From an uncultured Mucilaginibacter sp. (GTDB lineage: Bacteria; Bacteroidota; Bacteroidia; Sphingobacteriales; Sphingobacteriaceae), in assembly GCA_903863845.1 (NCBI GenBank), contig CAIPDP010000200.1, positions 1 through 64,000 of the forward strand: 64,000 nucleotides of DNA, read 5' to 3'. Shown piece after piece: positions 14,781 through 45,911 of the stretch. Within the stretch, counting starts at the first letter, position 1. Each line of letters begins with the position of its first letter. A program made the translations under genes and the position numbers. The notes beneath the pieces were generated by a model that saw nothing but the letters and a program-made list of their open reading frames with translations, did no database searches and was not told the DNA's origin.

Positions 14781-14990
14781 GTCGCCTCACCCCAACCCCT
14801 CTCCGGGGGAGAGGGGCTTTTTGGTTTTGGTTCATTCTTTGATCCTTCTTTCGGACTTACTTTTGTCGCCTCACCCCAACCCCTCTCCAGGGGAGAGGGG
14901 CTTTTTGTTTTTGGTTCATTCTTTGATCCTTCTTTTGGACTTTCTTTTGTCGCCTCACCCCAACCCCTCTCCAGGGGAGAGGGACTTTTT
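14781..14990. repeat. 84-bp tandem repeat, about 2.5 copies, each with a GAGAGGGG-type hairpin
   Basis: GTCGCCTCACCCCAACCCCTCTCC(G/A)GGGGAGAGGG... starts at 14781, 14865 and 14949, exact 84-bp period. Confidence 0.95.
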
Positions 14991-21436: not shown

Positions 21437-22177
21437 TTAGTTAATCTGCTCGCTGATCATACCAAAACGGCGTTCGCGTTTTTGAAAATCTACTATGGCT
21501 TCAAACAGGTCCTCGCGCCTGAAATCGGGCCATAATTTAGGCGTAAAATACAACTCGGCATAAGCGATCTGCCAAAGCAGATAGTTGCTTATCCTGTATT
21601 CCCCGCTCGTTCTGATCATCAGCTCAGGATCAGGCATAGCGCTTGTGTATAAATTATTTTCAATCGTTTCTTCATTAATTTGTTCAATGCTTAATTCGCC
21701 CTTAAGTACTTTTGAAGCTATATTTTTTACGGCGCGAACAATTTCGCGGCGCGAACTATAACTAAGGGCGAGCGTTAATACCAATCCGGTATTGTTGGAA
21801 GTTCGTTCCATAGCTGATGTTAACTCACGATAACATTTTTCGGGAAGCATATTAAGCTCACCTATGGCGTTCAAACGCACATTATTTTTCATAAAGTTGT
21901 TGATCTCTTTATGAATAGTCGAGATCATCAACTCCATAATTGCCGAAACTTCAAGCCTGGGCCTGTTCCAGTTCTCGGACGAGAAAGTATAAAGGGTAAT
22001 ATACTTCACCCCGATCTCACCAGCTCCTTCTACCACATCGCGAACAGAGACCACACCATTACGGTGACCAAAAACCCTTAGTTTACCCTTGCCTTTGGCC
22101 CAGCGTCCATTTCCATCCATGATGATGGCAATATGCTCCGGTAACCTCGATAAATCGATCTGATCTTTAAATCCCAT
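21437..22177 (-). CDS. uppS: isoprenyl transferase (undecaprenyl diphosphate synthase)
   Basis: PEHIAIIMDGNGRWAKGKGKLRVFGHRNG and PDPELMIRTSGEYRISNYLLWQIAYAELYFTPKLWPDF. Confidence 0.96.
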   Translation of the reverse strand: MGFKDQIDLSRLPEHIAIIMDGNGRWAKGKGKLRVFGHRNGVVSVRDVVEGAGEIGVKYITLYTFSSENWNRPRLEVSAIMELMISTIHKEINNFMKNNVRLNAIGELNMLPEKCYRELTSAMERTSNNTGLVLTLALSYSSRREIVRAVKNIASKVLKGELSIEQINEETIENNLYTSAMPDPELMIRTSGEYRISNYLLWQIAYAELYFTPKLWPDFRREDLFEAIVDFQKRERRFGMISEQIN

Positions 22178-22425
22178 TTTGTCCGCTGCTCAAATTCGCT
22201 CACAGCTAAATAGATATATTTTAATAAAAATCTACTTGTTTGTGTTTAAATGCTCAACCATGGGAAAGGCATTTAATCCCTTTTGCCCACTTTTTTTCAG
22301 GGTACAAAGGTAAAACTTACTTTGTACTTTTTTAGTATGGTCGAAAAAAAGAAAAGTGCCGGGAATTAGAGGCAAAATTACGACAGCCGCCGCAACAGAT
22401 ACCGGCTTGTCTGTAATTCAGGTAT

Positions 22426-22944
22426 TTAATACGCGCCCTGCTGTTTGAGCATCCCGATATCTTTTGTCGAGATATCTGCAATGGCATATGATGGCACGTT
22501 AGTGATATTCAATTCGTCGATGGTATTTACCAGGTTATCATACATAGAATGTGCGCTGGGTTTAAGTATAACGATCATCGACTTCCCGGTTGCCTTTTGA
22601 ACGGCATCTGCAGTATTAATTAATGCCGCCCTTAATCCCGTTTTTGAATAGTTGACTATTTGTGGCCTTGCAAGAGGCTTATCTGCAAGTCCAAGGTACC
22701 AAAGCACCTGGTTGTTTTTACCCAGGCAGACGGTCATGGTGCGACTTGCCGGCACCGGGCCTTCGTTAGTACCGACAGGCATAGCCAGTTGCATGGCATG
22801 ATGTTGCTGCAGGGAAGTAGTCAAAATAAAAAAAGTAATTAATAAGAACGCCAGATCGACCATTGCTGTAAGGTCGATGCGCACAGGGAGCTTTTTGAGC
22901 GAGCTTCTGCCCTGATTTTTTCCGGAGGTGATCAATTCTGCCAT
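22426..22944 (-). CDS. ExbD/TolR family biopolymer transport protein
   Basis: LPVRIDLTAMVDLAFLLITFFILTTSL; start placed at internal Met (MAELITSGKNQ). Confidence 0.88.
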   Translation of the reverse strand: MAELITSGKNQGRSSLKKLPVRIDLTAMVDLAFLLITFFILTTSLQQHHAMQLAMPVGTNEGPVPASRTMTVCLGKNNQVLWYLGLADKPLARPQIVNYSKTGLRAALINTADAVQKATGKSMIVILKPSAHSMYDNLVNTIDELNITNVPSYAIADISTKDIGMLKQQGAY

Positions 22945-23218
22945 AATGTTAGGTTTTAGGTAATTTGCTTCTTTGATTGTCGTGCCCCGGGCCATCGTCG
23001 CCAGGGAGAACAACATTTGAAATGCATATAGATAATTTTAATAAATACAATATTTAAACGAATTAAATTTGTTAATTATTGCATTATGAAGAATTTTATT
23101 TTAAAATATGAATAGGCAAGCATCCCAATAACTATCGAGATTCCGAAAGATGTTTACGAAATCACCTGACTAACAAAATGCCCAATGACCTAATGGCGGC
23201 GCAGCCAAATGGCCCGAG

Positions 23219-23460
23219 GACGAAAGACAAATGACGAAAGACGAGAGACAAATGACGAAAGACAAATGACGAAAGACGAGAGACGAAAGACAAATGACGA
23301 AAGACGAAAGACGAAAGACAAATGACGAAAGACAAATGACGAAAGACGAGAGACAAATGACGAAAGACAAATGACGAAAGACGAAAGACAAATGACCTAA
23401 TGACCTAATGACCCAATGACCCAATGACTAATGACCAATGACTAATGACCAATGACTAAT
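23219..23460. repeat. heptamer/octamer array (GACGAAA / GACAAAT / GACGAGA, then GACCTAAT, GACCCAAT, GACTAAT, GACCAAT)
   Basis: 25 in-register heptamers at 23219-23393, four octamers at 23394-23425, five heptamers at 23426-23460. Confidence 0.97.
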
Positions 23461-24241
23461 AATAACACTTAGTACTAATAAAGGTAAAAGATATCCCGAG
23501 GTTGATGAACATATAGGAATCATGTGCTCTGCCGTCGCCGCGCTGGGTGCCGGGGGTGCCGATATAAACACCGGTAAGTTCGCCTGAGCGGTCAGATAAA
23601 GCCTGAGCAAGAGGACTGCTAAGTTTGTTTTTGTTGGGATATACGCCGGCAACATCATCCAGGTAGTCGGTATTTGGATTGCGGTAGCCTATGTCGGCGA
23701 TAAAGTTCCATTTGCCGGCAAAGTTATATTTGATACCCGCACCATAGGGAATAGAAAATGCAAGACTGGGATAAGGTTTCGATTCAGCCTCGGTTTTCAG
23801 GGGACGAAGATCATAATAATGCCCCTGGTATTCGGCCTGGGGATTATAGCCCAGGGCACCAAAACCAAAATAAATAAAAGGTGTGAATTTATTCTGCCCC
23901 ACTTCAGGTACATATTTAAAGAAATTAAATTCGCCTAATAAGGCACCTTCATTAAGTGTCGTTCGAAAGCTCAGGTTACGGGCTCTGAATTGCGGGTCGG
24001 AAGAGTTTTTATCAGCATAGGCTATGATGCCAAAGGTATATTTGAGTTTAAGCGACCAGTAGCCATCGAAATTTTTTGCCCCAAAAACGCCCAGAGCAGG
24101 GCCGCTAATTTGCAGTGGGTTGCCGGGATTTAAATCGCCCATATATCCCGCTGCACCAACGTTGCCCCCAATTTCCCAGGTTTGGGCCCTGAGGCTCAGC
24201 GAAAGCAAAAGAAAACATATAATTAAGACAGATCTGGGCAT
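23456..24241 (-). CDS. outer membrane beta-barrel protein (DUF6089-like)
   Basis: Signal peptide; WEIGGNVGAAGYMGDLNPGNPLQISGPALGVFGAKNFDGYWSLKLKYTFG; between nadK and the uppS-bamA cluster. Confidence 0.8.
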   Translation of the reverse strand: MPRSVLIICFLLLSLSLRAQTWEIGGNVGAAGYMGDLNPGNPLQISGPALGVFGAKNFDGYWSLKLKYTFGIIAYADKNSSDPQFRARNLSFRTTLNEGALLGEFNFFKYVPEVGQNKFTPFIYFGFGALGYNPQAEYQGHYYDLRPLKTEAESKPYPSLAFSIPYGAGIKYNFAGKWNFIADIGYRNPNTDYLDDVAGVYPNKNKLSSPLAQALSDRSGELTGVYIGTPGTQRGDGRAHDSYMFINLGISFTFISTKCYY

Positions 24242-24250
24242 TCACTCAAA

Positions 24251-25132
24251 TTAGTAGTTACGGGCATCCAGGCCCCATAACAGTTTATTTCTTAACGTGG
24301 ATAGGTAACTTTCATTATTCAGCCGGATGAGGTTTAACTTGAAATCAGCTTTACGGATATTGAATTTCATCGTCTTTTCTAAAACCGCCGTCCTTGAATC
24401 ACAGGAAACCAGGTAATTAGCACTTCGAACTTCCACTTCAAATGACAGTTTACTACTATCGGGTAATACGATAGGACGCACATTCAGGTTATGAGGCGAA
24501 ATCGGTGTTATCGCGATACTATTCGAAGCCGGGAAAATGATCGGGCCACCGCAACTGAGCGAATAAGCTGTCGACCCGGTTGAGGTCGACACGATGATGC
24601 CATCGCCCCAGTAAGAATTCAGAAACTCGTCATTTAAAAAGGCATGAACAGTGATCATGGCTGCATCATCCCGTTTGTGGAACGTAATATCGTTGATCGC
24701 AAAATTATCTTTCCCGAATATTTGTTGTTCGCAGTCTATCTGCAGCAATTCGCGACCATCAATAGTATAGTTTTTATTCATCACCGCGTAGATAGCCGCA
24801 GGAATATCGTTTTTATTGACGCTTGCCAGGAAACCCAGCCTGCCAAAGTTAATGCCGATAACCGGTATACCTGAATCTGATATCAATGCGACCATGTCTA
24901 ACAAAGTGCCATCACCGCCAAGCGTAAAGAACACATCGATCGACTGGCGAATGAAATGATCACCTGGGAGTAATTCGTACTTTACATTTGTAATTTTCCC
25001 ATCCAGGTAATCAAAAAGCTGTCGGTGTACAAAAATTTCGGCGTGGTGCTGGGCCAGGTTTTCAAAAACCTGCTGCACAAAAGGAATTACAGCCGAATCA
25101 TTAAATGGCCTGCCATAGATTGCTACTCTCAT
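24251..25132 (-). CDS. nadK: NAD kinase
   Basis: FFTLGGDGTLLDMV, GINFGRLGFLA, STSTGSTAYSLSCGGPI. Confidence 0.96.
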   Translation of the reverse strand: MRVAIYGRPFNDSAVIPFVQQVFENLAQHHAEIFVHRQLFDYLDGKITNVKYELLPGDHFIRQSIDVFFTLGGDGTLLDMVALISDSGIPVIGINFGRLGFLASVNKNDIPAAIYAVMNKNYTIDGRELLQIDCEQQIFGKDNFAINDITFHKRDDAAMITVHAFLNDEFLNSYWGDGIIVSTSTGSTAYSLSCGGPIIFPASNSIAITPISPHNLNVRPIVLPDSSKLSFEVEVRSANYLVSCDSRTAVLEKTMKFNIRKADFKLNLIRLNNESYLSTLRNKLLWGLDARNY

Positions 25133-25234
25133 GCTTTGAAGTTCATGGTTGATAGTTCATAGTTCATAGCCAATACAGATGATTTGTTTATGATGCAAAA
25201 GTAAGGATTCTATGAACCAAAGGCTATGTGCGGA

Positions 25235-25897
25235 TTATAAATTAAGATAATTCATTAACGAGTCATAGCGATCTTTCGAGCCATCGTTTTCATCAACATG
25301 GTTGAAAGTGGCCTTCACATCATATTCATATCGGATAAAAGTGGCTATGATCGCTGAAATATCAACTTTGTTCACTTTCAATGTAACCTCTATTTTAGTT
25401 GAATCGGGGAAGGTGCGAACATAGGAGCTTAGAATTTGCGCATTATCCGATTCAACAATTTGCGCCATATGTGCCAGCGAATTGTTTTTATTACCGATCT
25501 CGAGCACGATAATACCACCCGGTTCCGAAACTGATGTCAGTTTAGCGAAATAGGCATTCATGGTATTAATGGAAATCACACCCAGGTAAGTGCTTTTTGC
25601 ATCAAGCACCGGTACGATCGACAATTGCTGTTCATAAAACAACCTGATCACATCATAAATATGTTGTTCTTCGTGAACGTATGGATTTACCAGTGATAAT
25701 TTCAGTGTTTCGATGGCTGCATGGTAGTCGGTTGCTTCAACCAGATCATTTTCAGATATCAGTCCAAGAAACTGATCCTCGCCCACAATTGGCAGGTGCC
25801 TCACTTTAAACTCCGCCATTCTGTCGAACACTTTCTGAATCGGGTCAGTAGGGTGCACCGGTAGAATGATGTTAGTTATCAGCTCAATTGCCAGCAT
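25235..25897 (-). CDS. CBS-domain protein
   Basis: Two CBS-like repeats: RHLPIVGEDQFLGLISENDLV and LSIVPVLDAKSTYLGVISI. Confidence 0.88.
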   Translation of the reverse strand: MLAIELITNIILPVHPTDPIQKVFDRMAEFKVRHLPIVGEDQFLGLISENDLVEATDYHAAIETLKLSLVNPYVHEEQHIYDVIRLFYEQQLSIVPVLDAKSTYLGVISINTMNAYFAKLTSVSEPGGIIVLEIGNKNNSLAHMAQIVESDNAQILSSYVRTFPDSTKIEVTLKVNKVDISAIIATFIRYEYDVKATFNHVDENDGSKDRYDSLMNYLNL

Positions 25898-25898
25898 A

Positions 25899-26690
25899 TT
25901 AAACTTTTATTTTATCGCGTTCTAAAAAAGCCCTTAATAATTTATTAAACTCATCGGGTTGCTCCATCATGGCTGCATGACCGCATTGATCGATCCAGTG
26001 CAATTCTGAATTGGGCAACAGGTTGTTAAACTCTATTGCAACCGCCGGCGGTGTTATCCTGTCATTTCGTCCCCATATCAACAAAACCGGGATATGGATC
26101 TTATGCAGTTCCTTACCCATATTATGCCGTATGGCCGATTTTGCCATAGCTAATATTCTTATTACGCGATTACGGTCATTAATGGTTTGAAAAACATCAT
26201 CAATTAATTCTTTTGTTGCTGTTTTTGGATCGTAAAAGGTATACTCTACTTTCTCTTTAACAAAATCATAGCTTTCGCGACGTGGAAACGAGCCGCCAAA
26301 TGCGTTTTCATATAACCCCGAACTGCCCGTTAATACCAAAGCCTTTACCGGATGAGGATGGTTGATGCAATAGATAAGACCCACATGCCCGCCAAGCGAA
26401 TTGCCAAGCAGTGTAAAGTCTTTCAGATCCATATAGGTCACAAAACGATGGACATGTTTAGCCAGCGTTTTTACACCAGTAGTAAGCAGGGGTAGATCAT
26501 AAATAGGCAACATGGGAATAATGATGCGGTAATCGTCCTTAAACTCATTGATCACCCTTTCCCAGTTGCTTAATGCCCCCATTAAACCGTGCAAAAGCAA
26601 CAATACTTCTCCTTCGCCCTCATCGATATAACTAAAACCGTTTTCCTCTTTAAGCACGAAATCCATAAATACCTTTGTAATTGCTAGCAT
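25899..26690 (-). CDS. alpha/beta hydrolase
   Basis: LLLHGLMGALSNW, LLGNSLGGHVGL nucleophile elbow, C-terminal CGHAAMMEQPDEFN. Confidence 0.92.
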   Translation of the reverse strand: MLAITKVFMDFVLKEENGFSYIDEGEGEVLLLLHGLMGALSNWERVINEFKDDYRIIIPMLPIYDLPLLTTGVKTLAKHVHRFVTYMDLKDFTLLGNSLGGHVGLIYCINHPHPVKALVLTGSSGLYENAFGGSFPRRESYDFVKEKVEYTFYDPKTATKELIDDVFQTINDRNRVIRILAMAKSAIRHNMGKELHKIHIPVLLIWGRNDRITPPAVAIEFNNLLPNSELHWIDQCGHAAMMEQPDEFNKLLRAFLERDKIKV

Positions 26691-27404: not shown

Positions 27405-27421
27405 TCCCGATAGCTATCGGG
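27405..27421. repeat. dispersed palindrome copy TCCCGATAGCTATCGGG
   Basis: Same core as at 33513, 34643 and 44505. Confidence 0.85.
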
Positions 27422-28187: not shown

Positions 28188-28269
28188 AGGTAGTTTAAAA
28201 GTGCGAATTTATGAAATTTTTGTCCGATTCGAAGTGGGAAGTAGTCCGAAAGTCCGCATAAGTCCGAAA

Positions 28270-28510
28270 GTCCGAAAGATGGATTATCAAATTAAACCAA
28301 AAGCCCTCTCCTCGGAGAGTGCTTGGGGTGAGGCGACGAAAGCAAGTCCGAAAGTTGGATTATCAAATGAAACGAAACCAAAAAGCCCCTCTCCCCCGGA
28401 GAGGGGTTGGGGTGAGGCGACGAAAGCAAGTCCGAAAGATGTATTATCAATCGAAACGAAACAAAAAGCCCCTCTCCCCGGGAGAGAGCTTGGGGTGAGG
28501 CGACGAAAGC
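28270..28510. repeat. second locus of the 84-bp hairpin repeat family, 3 units (about 76/84/80 bp)
   Basis: Unit starts GTCCGAAAG at 28270, 28346 and 28430; each holds CCTCTCC..GGAGAG..TTGGGGTGAGGCGACGAAAGC; reverse orientation relative to 14781-14990. Confidence 0.93.
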
Positions 28511-28658
28511 AAGCAAGGAAATAAATTGCTACTCAATTGACGAAGGCTATTTCAAAATTAAAATCCCAGATTTAATTTTCATCCTCCAAAGTTTCAAACA
28601 TCAGCAAATGCAACTTTCGGAATTTCGGACTTCTACGGACTCCTCCGGACTTAAAAAC

Positions 28659-29611: not shown

Positions 29612-30352
29612 TTATTTCACTCCAGTATAAATCGAACAAATCCCAAACGCCAGCGGCCTGCATTTGGTATTTTTATAGCCCACTTTATCCATCAGCCCCG
29701 TAAAATCTTTCCCATCCGGAAATGCAGCTACCGATTCGGGCAGATAGGTGTAGGCGCGCGCATCTTTAGAAAACAATTTGCCAATACCCGGCGTGATATA
29801 ATTAAAATAAAAATTGTACAACTGCTTGATCGGAAATGCTTTGGGTTTCGAAAACTCCAGCACTACTGCTTTACCACCGGGTTTTAATACCCTTAATATA
29901 TCGGCAATGCCTTTTTCCAAATTCTCAAAATTTCGCACCCCATAGGCCACGGTAACCGCGTCAAAAGCATCCGCTTCGAAAGGCAAACCTTCCGAATCAC
30001 CGAGTTTTACCTCGAAACGATCATTTAGGTTGCGTTTGGCTATCTTTTGATCAGCAATGTCCAACATGCCCCGTGATATATCAACACCGATGATCTTTTC
30101 AGGTTTCAATATGTTAAGTGCTTCGAAGGCAAAATCACCGGTACCGGTAGCCACATCCAGGATCAGTTTTGGCTGATCTTTCTTCAATTCGTTAATTGCT
30201 TTTTTACGCCAGATGATATCAATACCCAGCGACAAAAAATGATTCAGGAAATCGTAGGTTTTGGAGATGTTATTGAACATATCGGCCACCTGCTCTTTTT
30301 TGGTGCCCTGCTCTTCGGTGTAGGGAATTACTGTTTTGCTCATTGGGGGCAA
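29612..30352 (-). CDS. ubiE: demethylmenaquinone/ubiquinone methyltransferase
   Basis: MFNNISKTYDFLNHFLSLGIDIIWRKKAI, LDVATGTGDFAFEAL, VTVAYGVRNFENLEKGIADILRVLKPGG. Confidence 0.95.
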   Translation of the reverse strand: MPPMSKTVIPYTEEQGTKKEQVADMFNNISKTYDFLNHFLSLGIDIIWRKKAINELKKDQPKLILDVATGTGDFAFEALNILKPEKIIGVDISRGMLDIADQKIAKRNLNDRFEVKLGDSEGLPFEADAFDAVTVAYGVRNFENLEKGIADILRVLKPGGKAVVLEFSKPKAFPIKQLYNFYFNYITPGIGKLFSKDARAYTYLPESVAAFPDGKDFTGLMDKVGYKNTKCRPLAFGICSIYTGVK

Positions 30353-30373
30353 AGATAGGTTGAAATGTTGGAA

Positions 30374-30498
30374 GGTGGTAGTGGTTGTGTTAGTTGTATT
30401 AGTTGTAGTAGGGTAGCTGACTACAGACTAGCAATTCGCTTTAAAACACATCATTCCTAATTCAACTAATACAACCTCTACAACCAGTACAACTACTA
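30374..30498. repeat. nonamer (CAACTAATA-type) arrays in inverted orientation
   Basis: Reverse copies TTAGTTGTA x2 near 30378-30411; forward CAACTAATA CAACCTCTA CAACCAGTA CAACTACTA at 30463-30498. Confidence 0.8.
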
Positions 30499-32748: not shown

Positions 32749-33354
32749 ATGGACGCAAACTCGGCCTTAAATATCTACCGCGAACAGCTAAAAAAATATA
32801 TCGACTTTAATGAGGCCGAATGGATCATTTTTTCGTTGCATCTAAGCATAAACCAGCTTAAAAAGAAACATTACTTTGCTGAGCCTGGTAAGGTTTGCGA
32901 TAAGGTTGCCTTTATGATCATAGGAACGGTTAGGTATTTCCACATCAAAGACGGGCAGGAAATTACCGGCTATTTCAGTTTCGAGAACGAATTTGTTACC
33001 TCGTACAAAAGTTTCCTCACCGGGCTGCCCGGTCTTACTTATATCCAGGCGCTGGAAGACTGTTTACTCATCACCTTTACCCATCGCGATCTGGACCAAA
33101 TGCTGGCCAACCCTATGCTGGCCTACAAAGTAGAAAAATTCGGCCGACTGGTTGCCGAAGAAACCATTATTTGCTATGAGGATCGTGTAGCATCATTCAT
33201 CACCCAGACACCCGAAGAGCGCTACCTGCAATTGTACAATACCGGCAAGGATATCTTAAGGCGCATGCCCCAGCATTATATTGCCAATTACCTGGGCATC
33301 ACTCCGGTATCGCTATCGCGTATCCGACGAAGAGTACTTACCGGGGTTAAGTGA
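32749..33354 (+). CDS. Crp/Fnr-family transcriptional regulator
   Basis: cNMP-binding-like fold, CYEDRVASFITQTPEERYLQLY, HTH HYIANYLGITPVSLSRIRRRV. Confidence 0.93.
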   Translation: MDANSALNIYREQLKKYIDFNEAEWIIFSLHLSINQLKKKHYFAEPGKVCDKVAFMIIGTVRYFHIKDGQEITGYFSFENEFVTSYKSFLTGLPGLTYIQALEDCLLITFTHRDLDQMLANPMLAYKVEKFGRLVAEETIICYEDRVASFITQTPEERYLQLYNTGKDILRRMPQHYIANYLGITPVSLSRIRRRVLTGVK

Positions 33355-33455
33355 TTGGCTAACTGGTGATTAGTTAATTTGTGATTGGTTAACTGGTGAT
33401 TGGTCAACTTGTGATTAGTTACCCTGTCATTTGTTAACCTGTGATTTACCAAATG
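33351..33455. repeat. 15-mer array (GTGATTGGTTAACTG-type), 7 units
   Basis: GTGATTGGCTAACTG / GTGATTAGTTAATTT / GTGATTGGTTAACTG / GTGATTGGTCAACTT / GTGATTAGTTACCCT / GTCATTTGTTAACCT / GTGATTTACCAAATG. Confidence 0.93.
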
Positions 33456-33512
33456 GCAATTTAGCCATTACCAAAAAGGTTTAAACCTAGATAATGCCAA
33501 ACCAGTACAACT

Positions 33513-33532
33513 GTCCCAATAGCTATCGGGAC
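33513..33532. repeat. dispersed palindrome copy GTCCCAATAGCTATCGGGAC
   Basis: Near-perfect palindrome abutting a nonamer array. Confidence 0.88.
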
Positions 33533-33594
33533 AACCAGTTCAACCAATACAACCAGTTCAACCAATAAAACCAATAAAACCAATAAAACTAATC
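33532..33594. repeat. nonamer array (CAACCAGTT / CAACCAATA / AAACCAATA), 7 units
   Basis: Seven in-register 9-mers. Confidence 0.93.
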
Positions 33595-33703: not shown

Positions 33704-34651
33704 ATGCATACCATATTAGGAGCCGGCGGCCCGGTAGCAAATGCTCTCGCCCGCGAACTGCAAAGCAATAATAATGAACCTACCAGACTTGTGAGCCGGA
33801 AAGAGATCAAAACAAACGGCAAGAACCAAACCTGGGCAAAAGCTGATCTGCTCATCTTTAAAGAAGTACTGGAGGCTGTTAAAGGCTCGAAGGTGATCTA
33901 CCTGACCGCCGGCCTGGTGTACGACAAAAAAATATGGGCCCAACAATGGCCCGTGGTGATGAATAACTTCATCAACGCAGGCAAGGAAACAGGTGCCCGA
34001 CTGATCTTTTTTGACAATGTTTACAGCTATGGTCTGGTCAACGGACCAATGTTGGAAACAACACCCTATAACCCCTCCAGCGTAAAAGGGGAGATACGTG
34101 CCCGTATTGCTACACAATTGCTGGACGAAGCGAAGGCTGGTAATATAACCGCATCGATAGCCCGCGCTGCAGATTTTTATGGCACCGATAACGGCAACAG
34201 CTTTTTTGATGTAATGGTTTTAGACAAGTTTGCGAAAAAGCAAAAAGCCCAATTAATAGGTGACCCTAGTAAGCTGCATAGTTTTAGCTACATCCCGGAT
34301 ATGGGCAAAGGACTGTTTTTATTGGGACAGGATGCTTCCTGTGATAACCAAACCTGGCACATGCCGACTGCAAAGCCCTTAACCGGCCAGCAATTTATTG
34401 AAATTGCTGCAAAGGCAAATGATACCAAACCCAGTTTTATGACCTTGGGTAAATTCATGCTATGGAGCTACGGACTGTTTGTTAAATTTGCTGGTGAAAG
34501 TGTTGAGATGTATTATCAGTACAATCACGATTATATTTTCAACTCTGATAAGTTTGAGAAAGCTTTTAATTTTAAACCGACGAGCTATTTGGAAGGGTTT
34601 AAGATATATGCAGAGAAGGCTGGAAGTTCAAATAAGTCCGTATCCCGATAG
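33704..34651 (+). CDS. NAD-dependent epimerase/dehydratase family protein
   Basis: TILGAGGPVANALARELQ, VIYLTAGLVYDKKIWAQQWPVVMNNFINA, FFDNVYSYGLVNGPMLE. Confidence 0.9.
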   Translation: MHTILGAGGPVANALARELQSNNNEPTRLVSRKEIKTNGKNQTWAKADLLIFKEVLEAVKGSKVIYLTAGLVYDKKIWAQQWPVVMNNFINAGKETGARLIFFDNVYSYGLVNGPMLETTPYNPSSVKGEIRARIATQLLDEAKAGNITASIARAADFYGTDNGNSFFDVMVLDKFAKKQKAQLIGDPSKLHSFSYIPDMGKGLFLLGQDASCDNQTWHMPTAKPLTGQQFIEIAAKANDTKPSFMTLGKFMLWSYGLFVKFAGESVEMYYQYNHDYIFNSDKFEKAFNFKPTSYLEGFKIYAEKAGSSNKSVSR

Positions 34652-34660
34652 CTATCAGGA
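34643..34660. repeat. dispersed palindrome copy TCCCGATAGCTATCAGGA
   Basis: One mismatch from the core; overlaps the 3' end of the epimerase CDS. Confidence 0.8.
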
Positions 34661-44462: not shown

Positions 44463-44522
44463 CAACTAATACAACTAATTTAACCAATGCAACCAGTACA
44501 ATTATCCCGATAGCTATCGGGA
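44463..44522. repeat. nonamer array followed by palindrome TCCCGATAGCTATCGGGA
   Basis: CAACTAATA CAACTAATT TAACCAATG CAACCAGTA CAATTA then perfect 18-bp palindrome at 44505-44522. Confidence 0.9.
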
Positions 44523-45183: not shown

Positions 45184-45246
45184 CAACCATTACAATTAGT
45201 TAACCTAATACAACTAGTAAAACCAATACAACTAATACAACTGGTA
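45184..45246. repeat. nonamer array (CAACTAATA-type), 7 units
   Basis: CAACCATTA CAATTAGTT AACCTAATA CAACTAGTA AAACCAATA CAACTAATA CAACTGGTA. Confidence 0.9.
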
Positions 45247-45299
45247 CTACTCCCACATCTGTCCCCAAAATTTCCTAAATTTACCGCAAATACCCACGA

Positions 45300-45911
45300 A
45301 TGAAGATCATCGCCATAGGCCGCAATTACGCCGAACATGCTAAAGAGTTGAACAACCCGGTTCCAACTGTTCCAGTTATATTTCTGAAGCCGGATACCGC
45401 ATTACTGCGCGAAAACAAAGCATTTTATCATCCCGATTTTTCGCAGGACATTCACCACGAGATCGAAGTGGTTTTGAAAGTTTGCAAAGAGGGGAAAAAT
45501 ATCAGCGAGAAATTCGCATCCAATTATTATGACGAGATCGGCCTCGGTGTAGATTTTACTGCACGTGATATACAAAGCCGGCATAAAGAAAAGGGCCTTC
45601 CCTGGGAATTGGCAAAAGCATTCGACGGCTCGGCACCTGTCAGTAATTTTATACCTAAATCAGAATTCACCGATCTTTACAACCTTGATTTTAAGCTCGA
45701 GATCAACGGAGAGGTTCGTCAGCATGGAAATACAAAAGATCTCCTATTTTCCTTCGAACGCATCATCACTTTTGTTTCACAATACATCACGCTAAAAAAA
45801 GGCGACCTGATTTTTACAGGAACTCCCCAGGGTGTTGGCAAAGTGAATATCGGCGATCACCTCGAAGCTTTCCTGGAGGGCAAACGAATGCTCGATTTTT
45901 ACGTTAAATAA
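45300..45911 (+). CDS. fumarylacetoacetate hydrolase family protein
   Basis: MKIIAIGRNYAEHAKELNNPVPTVPVIFLKPDTAL, IHHEIEVVLKV, GDLIFTGTPQGVGKV. Confidence 0.95.
   Translation: MKIIAIGRNYAEHAKELNNPVPTVPVIFLKPDTALLRENKAFYHPDFSQDIHHEIEVVLKVCKEGKNISEKFASNYYDEIGLGVDFTARDIQSRHKEKGLPWELAKAFDGSAPVSNFIPKSEFTDLYNLDFKLEINGEVRQHGNTKDLLFSFERIITFVSQYITLKKGDLIFTGTPQGVGKVNIGDHLEAFLEGKRMLDFYVK

Follow-up and report, generated by a model that had tools for sequence, protein, structure and literature searches.

The window, a 64,000-nucleotide stretch of contig CAIPDP010000200.1 from an uncultured Mucilaginibacter sp. (assembly GCA_903863845.1), carries a gene for a DUF6089 outer-membrane beta-barrel protein with an ExbD/TolR gene downstream, both on the minus strand. 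A longer ExbD/TolR open reading frame extends to 23016. The gap between the two genes is about 500 bp and contains a long tandem array of 7- and 8-nt units, the focal array (Table 1). The genome is 3.98 Mb and is assembled in 201 contigs. Its NAD kinase is 71-72% identical to those of two genomes labelled Mucilaginibacter, a level similar to that of genus mates and in keeping with an organism in or near this genus.

Table 1. Coordinates of the focal array, its flanking genes and other array-bearing features of the window
Feature	Position	Strand	Basis
ExbD/TolR gene, downstream	22426..22944	-	Pfam PF02472, E=2.2e-16; start at the ATG of the orthologue
Degenerate inner edge of the focal array, GCCCAATGACCTAATGG...CAGCCAAATGGCCCGAG	23180..23218	.	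direct reading
25 in-register heptamers GACGAAA, GACAAAT, GACGAGA	23219..23393	.	exact parse; TRF
Octamer block, four units	23394..23425	.	read in sequence; parse
Five heptamers GACTAAT/GACCAAT, outward ATTAGTC/ATTGGTC	23426..23460	.	sequence; sister comparison
DUF6089 / outer-membrane beta-barrel gene, 3' end bears array	23456..24241	-	Pfam PF19573, E=3.6e-19
Gap upstream of NAD kinase, used in cross-species test	25133..25234	.	orthologue comparison
9-mer mirrored pair, GTTGTATTAG outward at both ends	30344..30495	.	two-arm analysis
Mirrored gap	33351..33593	.	TRF and scans
9-mer array (CTAATACAA), outward-G, ahead of gene starting at 45300	45205..45251	.	TRF and scan

The largest block parses exactly into 25 heptamers (A, GACGAAA; B, GACAAAT; C, GACGAGA) in the order ABACBABACABAAABABACBABAAB, as a sequence-only reading of this DNA had set out. 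Read outward, on the minus strand, these words are TTTCGTC, ATTTGTC and TCTCGTC. The layout given for the remainder also holds: GACCTAAT twice (23394-23409) and GACCCAAT twice (23410-23425), outward ATTAGGTC and ATTGGGTC, are followed by GACTAAT and GACCAAT in alternation, and the last of these units includes TAG, the DUF6089 stop codon. The vocabulary comprises three words in the 25-unit block and seven overall, with TRF matches of 79-89%; words vary by scattered point substitutions between adjacent units, and the period is kept. The best period-7 score in the window is 71, against a maximum of 11 in 20 third-order Markov surrogates; the array is far beyond chance, and as a tandem run of units in the 5-11 nt range it has the length by which LSSRs are defined. 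TRF finds additional higher-order periods of 21 and 35, which show growth by duplication of blocks of three and five units. A slippage-generated VNTR, one of two possibilities offered at first sight, was correctly named as a candidate; the other, a structural spacer, is without specific support. Because the assembly is a draft, the number of units is to be taken as provisional.

The array is neither a CRISPR nor a codon repeat, as had been recognised from the letters. The heptamers adjoin each other without unique spacers, which rejects a CRISPR array. All three minus-strand frames are open across the 25-unit block and encode LSFVF/LSFVI-type repeats, merely because the block words contain no stop codon on that strand; plus-strand frames are closed by TGA. 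Two of the three open frames are the overlapping spurious ORFs of the original list (23162-23356 and 23170-23424). A coding repeat is rejected: open frames coexist on one strand, as a stop-free 7-mer array predicts, and the flanking genes supply the coding content. These frames and the draft state of the assembly are what could be said for a coding repeat or an assembly artefact, a reading that is barely credible. The words are polymorphic and stand in ordered, non-identical series, and similar arrays occur in many independent assemblies, closed chromosomes included. An Rfam scan of 22000-26000 gives no match near the gathering score, and the array words contain no compact GC-rich stem with a U run of the kind that marks an intrinsic terminator.

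In gene sense, the array begins inside the DUF6089 stop codon (ATTATTAG, then TCATTGGTCATTAGTC...) and heads towards ExbD; it is assigned to the DUF6089 3' end because its first words begin at the TAG. An inverted partner array was sought in the gap and none was found. A two-arm design is rejected here: the best self-complementary stretch of the gap is AT-rich and lies on the ExbD promoter side, at about 23033-23095. This stretch is an imperfect palindrome of about 60 bp upstream of ExbD, where orthologues have similar AT-rich sequence; it is perhaps an operator.

The closest sister species examined (G070) has a median protein identity of 92.5%. At the 3' end of its DUF6089 gene the ATTAGTC words are present and the 25-unit block is absent; the words common to both species are those nearest the stop codon. 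Among the congeners examined, only this sister has the same words at the focal site. G056 has instead a mirrored AGAGATT pair downstream of DUF6089 (read by eye), and most other congeners examined have no above-threshold array there. The closest sister examined lacks the 25-unit block, which is therefore young. Across 51 orthologous gaps compared with G070, above-threshold arrays are present in both genomes at two, here only at eight and in the sister only at one. At several of the eight, G070 has shorter or other words in the same place; its arrays at orthologous gaps are shorter, reordered or replaced. The focal array is a young, one-armed and ordinary member of a remarkable class.

What is said of the genome as a whole is based on about 1.03 Mb of its sequence, a quarter or so of the total: 591 kb made up of the window and stretches around family matches, and a control set of 443 kb from 40 contigs unselected for arrays. 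The larger sample was thus chosen by array matches. Genes were called with a simple home-made hexamer caller without annotation, and starts are less certain than stops. The search for further arrays that the sequence-only reading had suggested places the focal word family at 44 sites in this genome; in genus relatives the count differs widely, from none to more than 20. In the control set there are 14 intergenic arrays at period 7, seven at period 8 and nine at period 9, just one or two at each of the periods 2-6, and none in coding DNA at periods 7-9. An array of period 7, 8 or 9 is present in 28 of the 201 control gaps of at least 80 bp (about 14%), and a few hundred such arrays are estimated for the genome. 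At least eight word families can be distinguished (outward ATTRGTC, GGTATYA, AAAGGTG/AAAGGAT, GTTCATAG, TTAGTGAA, AATTTGAA, GTTGAAAT and GTTGTATTG). Arrays are nearly missing from the inside of genes, and most start at or near stop or start codons. TAG is the stop codon beside 22 of 44 outward arrays, compared with 194 of 826 (p=8e-5).

The arrays follow an orientation rule. When each is read away from the closest gene end, G exceeds C in 100 arrays and the reverse is seen in 24 (p=3e-12). The rule applies to both stop and start ends, across all four gene arrangements (71:15 in tandem, 18:5 in convergent and 11:4 in divergent gaps), when the ATTNGTC family is set aside (82:15), in the control set alone (25:5) and in the sister species (11:0). 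It also applies in Cyanobacteria: among the 69 listed matches to the ATTNGTC pattern, arrays are outward-G by 120:42, and by 73:24 for the families that were not searched for. Ordinary gap skew is rejected as the cause; gaps without arrays are too weakly skewed outward (about +0.05 at stops and +0.09 to +0.18 at starts) compared with +0.22 to +0.40 at the stops of array gaps. A stop codon in every outward word, as the reason for the orientation, is likewise rejected, since the common word ATTGGTC has none. In the focal array, the outward G excess of the 25-unit block is not strong, and the heptamers nearest the stop follow the rule. Identical ATTNGTC words are present in arrays of Nostoc, Tychonema, Microcoleus, Verrucomicrobia, Anaerolineae and Nitrospinae, among the matches listed (L091-L170). 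The first reading was sound on CRISPR, codons, spurious ORFs and slippage; it overlooked the genome-wide class, the placement at the DUF6089 3' end, the orientation rule and the inverted pairs.

Arrays are found at both ends of 31 gaps. In the mirrored gap at 33351, for example, a GTGATTGGTTAACTG array follows the stop codon (33351-33446) and an inverted AACCAATAA/CAACCAGTT array precedes the next gene (33532-33593). Inverted 6-mer similarity between the two arms of a gap is 0.36, against 0.09 for permuted arms, and unit order matches no better than in shuffled arms (score 40.5 versus 40.2). Paired arms have a common vocabulary without a common word order. Exactly palindromic arms and a recent copy of one arm are both rejected, as unit order is mismatched between arms.

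The gap upstream of the NAD kinase gene allows the same comparison across species. In the window it has an ATGAACY array at 25141-25169 and a weak inverted partner. In 20 congeners, arms of ATGAACY, AATGAACY, AATGACC, ATGGACT or ATTCGATA type, some of them weak, are situated just past the upstream stop codon and just ahead of the ATG. When non-overlapping halves of each gap are compared, own arms match at 33.4 and permuted arms at 22.3 (20 species; p<1e-4); in direct orientation there is nothing (12.05 versus 11.96). The mirrored design recurs in the 20 congeners while the family changes, both arms together. In five species the gap measures about 450-560 bp; judged by eye, a small gene that separates the arms is apparently the reason in at least some of them.

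The main rival to slippage is that the arrays act as functional RNA hairpins. In read-through transcripts, G/U-rich arrays in 3' UTRs would pair with C/A-rich arrays in 5' UTRs, and in convergent gaps the 3'-UTR arrays would pair among themselves; these would be candidate terminators, insulators or processing sites, whose architecture is selected while the words drift. The persistence of same-family mirrored arms in the 20 congeners despite word changes would be expected. Own arms form better duplexes than mismatched arms (-0.77 versus -0.43 kcal/mol per nt; 0 of 5000 permutations as extreme), canonical intrinsic terminators are fewer in array gaps (6/124) than in other gaps (30/268), and in the unbiased control set arrays are found in 7 of 27 convergent but only 3 of 45 divergent gaps. 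However, selection for pairing would demand that unit order match between arms, and it does not. Many arrays, the focal one included, are one-armed; same-family arms are in places separated by some 450-560 bp; the focal array is missing from most congeners, and some relatives are array-poor overall. The evidence for functional hairpins is weak and the reading is unlikely. A more specific proposal is doubtful to a greater degree: that mirrored arrays are selected gene-boundary elements, conserved in architecture and not in sequence, which serve as putative two-way transcript insulators. Arrays poor in C behind stop codons and arrays poor in G ahead of start codons would be able to pair across the gap, and such elements, built from interchangeable 7-9-nt words, would have originated repeatedly in Bacteroidota, Cyanobacteria and Xanthomonas.

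Inverted pairs, dispersed copies and restriction to gaps are also features of miniature mobile elements of the MITE or REP type, whose inverted ends would be tandem arrays by coincidence. A distinct REP-like palindrome, CCCGATAGCTATCGGG, often sits inside 9-mer arrays. This origin is nevertheless very improbable. No full-length copy or element body common to different gaps was seen, and words, their order and the sequence in the middle differ. The arrays also lack the discrete boundaries at which a target-site duplication or an empty site could be recognised. Arms share words without order and are sometimes drawn from different families. Between the arms, the sequence varies by gap; that of the NAD kinase gaps contains promoter-like TAnnTTTG motifs (read by eye).

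The palindrome CCCGATAGCTATCGGG is present in the window at 27406-27421, 33515-33530, 34644-34659 and 44506-44521. At up to two mismatches there are 59 copies in the 1.03 Mb, 58 of them intergenic, and none in shuffled sequence. In 9-mer arrays it is often flanked by GTTGT on one side and ATGGTTGT on the other. A literature search on the palindrome GATAGCTATC gave nothing useful. Tandem repeats of 84 bp with CCCCTCTCC...GGAGAG cores, at 14781-14990 and 28268-28513, form one family in opposite orientations, both in gaps. Sequence of AATCTGTGAAATCAG type is found near or between AATGACC arrays in two gaps, again in opposite orientations (L033:500-570 and L033:14990-15060). An insert, GCGCAGCAA/GCGAAGCAA, recurs between heptamers at L024:9626-9732, L025:9144-9296, L033:14910-15148 and L023:8200-8341; its presence at several unlinked loci suggests that composite units may spread between loci.

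Outward G on both sides of a gap, in the same family and whatever the gene direction, is what an extension of DNA ends would predict. The 3' ends of breaks in gaps would be extended outward with G/T-rich 7-9-mers, in telomere-like synthesis that is either templated or stuttering, before the ends are joined again. This is very improbable: the sequence between arms is partly kept in orthologous gaps, and the words grade into the sequence of the gene ends (stop TAG, start ATGAA).

The best explanation, to which we give a probability of about 0.6, is that slippage made the focal array grow as an intergenic minisatellite, one of many that have colonised gene ends in this genome, in quasi-palindromic gaps, and that are filtered by selection on those ends. 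A short sequence at a gene end, around a TAG stop or an ATGAA start, would be duplicated by slipped-strand mispairing; the seeded repeat would then grow, and point mutations in single units would spread along it. Where a gap has two arrays, its quasi-palindromic arms could pass words to each other by template switching, so that both arms would change family jointly. The focal gap has no inverted partner array, and this part of the model is inapplicable to it. Selection would keep arrays out of genes. Orientation would come mostly from selection acting on the genes to either side: sense RNA poor in G may be tolerated in 5' UTRs, and where the adjacent 3' end bears the inverted partner arm, that arm would consequently be G-rich. 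The focal array needs no specific function. Two points count against slippage alone. It does not explain outward G in convergent gaps and in so many unrelated words, nor does it account for finding the same ATTNGTC words, among the matches listed, in Cyanobacteria, Verrucomicrobia and Anaerolineae.

The STRR repeats of Calothrix, reportedly described by Mazel in 1990, resemble the class in that several tandem heptanucleotide families share one genome. Three tandem heptanucleotides are recorded in Calothrix PCC 7601 (PMC4692102). In unit size and length, the focal array belongs to a described kind of repeat, the long heptamer SSRs (Mrazek 2007). Its placement is that of the heptamers which Rehm et al. 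2015 (PMC4692102) describe at gene ends, the G-rich GGGAATC of Xanthomonas and GGGGA(C/T)T of Nostoc PCC 7120. The outward-G rule is already known for these two, since Rehm et al. state that quadruplex heptamers prefer to have the G-rich strand outward (the coding strand downstream of genes, the non-coding strand upstream), with inverted pairs in Xanthomonas. Words free of G-tracts and periods of 8 and 9 lay outside the scope of that paper. In the literature found, the rule at gene ends, often mirrored, is described only for these quadruplex-forming repeats. The class described here shares the orientation and the frequent inverted pairs, although the focal gap has none of the latter. It differs in that most of its words have at most GG and many have no GG; in the focal array, the 25-unit block words lack GG on either strand, and GGG is present in ATTGGGTC only (two units). 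It differs also in its periods of 8 and 9, in its many coexisting families and in its occurrence in Bacteroidota. The same rule holds for non-quadruplex words, in another phylum and in 8- and 9-mers, which speaks against quadruplexes as its cause.

Heptanucleotides were the most abundant class among the LSSRs (5-11 nt) of Mrazek et al. 2007, and polymerase slippage was proposed, according to the summary in PMC4679880; period 7 is likewise dominant here and slippage is likewise invoked. That summary mentions neither orientation nor mirrored pairs, both of which are features of the arrays here, and its ten genomes richest in 5-11 nt repeats include no Bacteroidota. Direct repeats of TAACTGA, known from Beggiatoaceae, Cyanobacteria and some Bacteroidetes (MacGregor 2015; PMC4679880), are also gap heptamers, scattered over Cyanobacteria and Bacteroidetes, strain-specific and missing from close relatives. 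They differ in being a single fixed word, mostly in short sets just ahead of starts, and TAACTGA is not among the focal array words. Degenerate heptanucleotide repeats in the P6b stem of the Nostoc trnL(UAA) intron show hairpin base pairing and changing copy number (PMC3488679), at one intron site as opposed to gene ends throughout a genome.

Earlier work has thus established an excess of heptamers (Mrazek 2007) and, for G4 heptamers, the outward-G rule (Rehm 2015); new are words incapable of forming G-quadruplexes, periods 8 and 9, the occurrence in Bacteroidota and the concerted switching of families. The class accounts for one type of spurious annotated ORF (SLVIGHWSLVISHW, LSFVFRHLSFV). 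The NAD kinase gap offers a specific, testable example of paired minisatellites evolving in concert. The excess of heptamers in bacterial gaps, noted in 2007, is still without a settled explanation, and the outward-G rule has so far been treated as a quadruplex matter.
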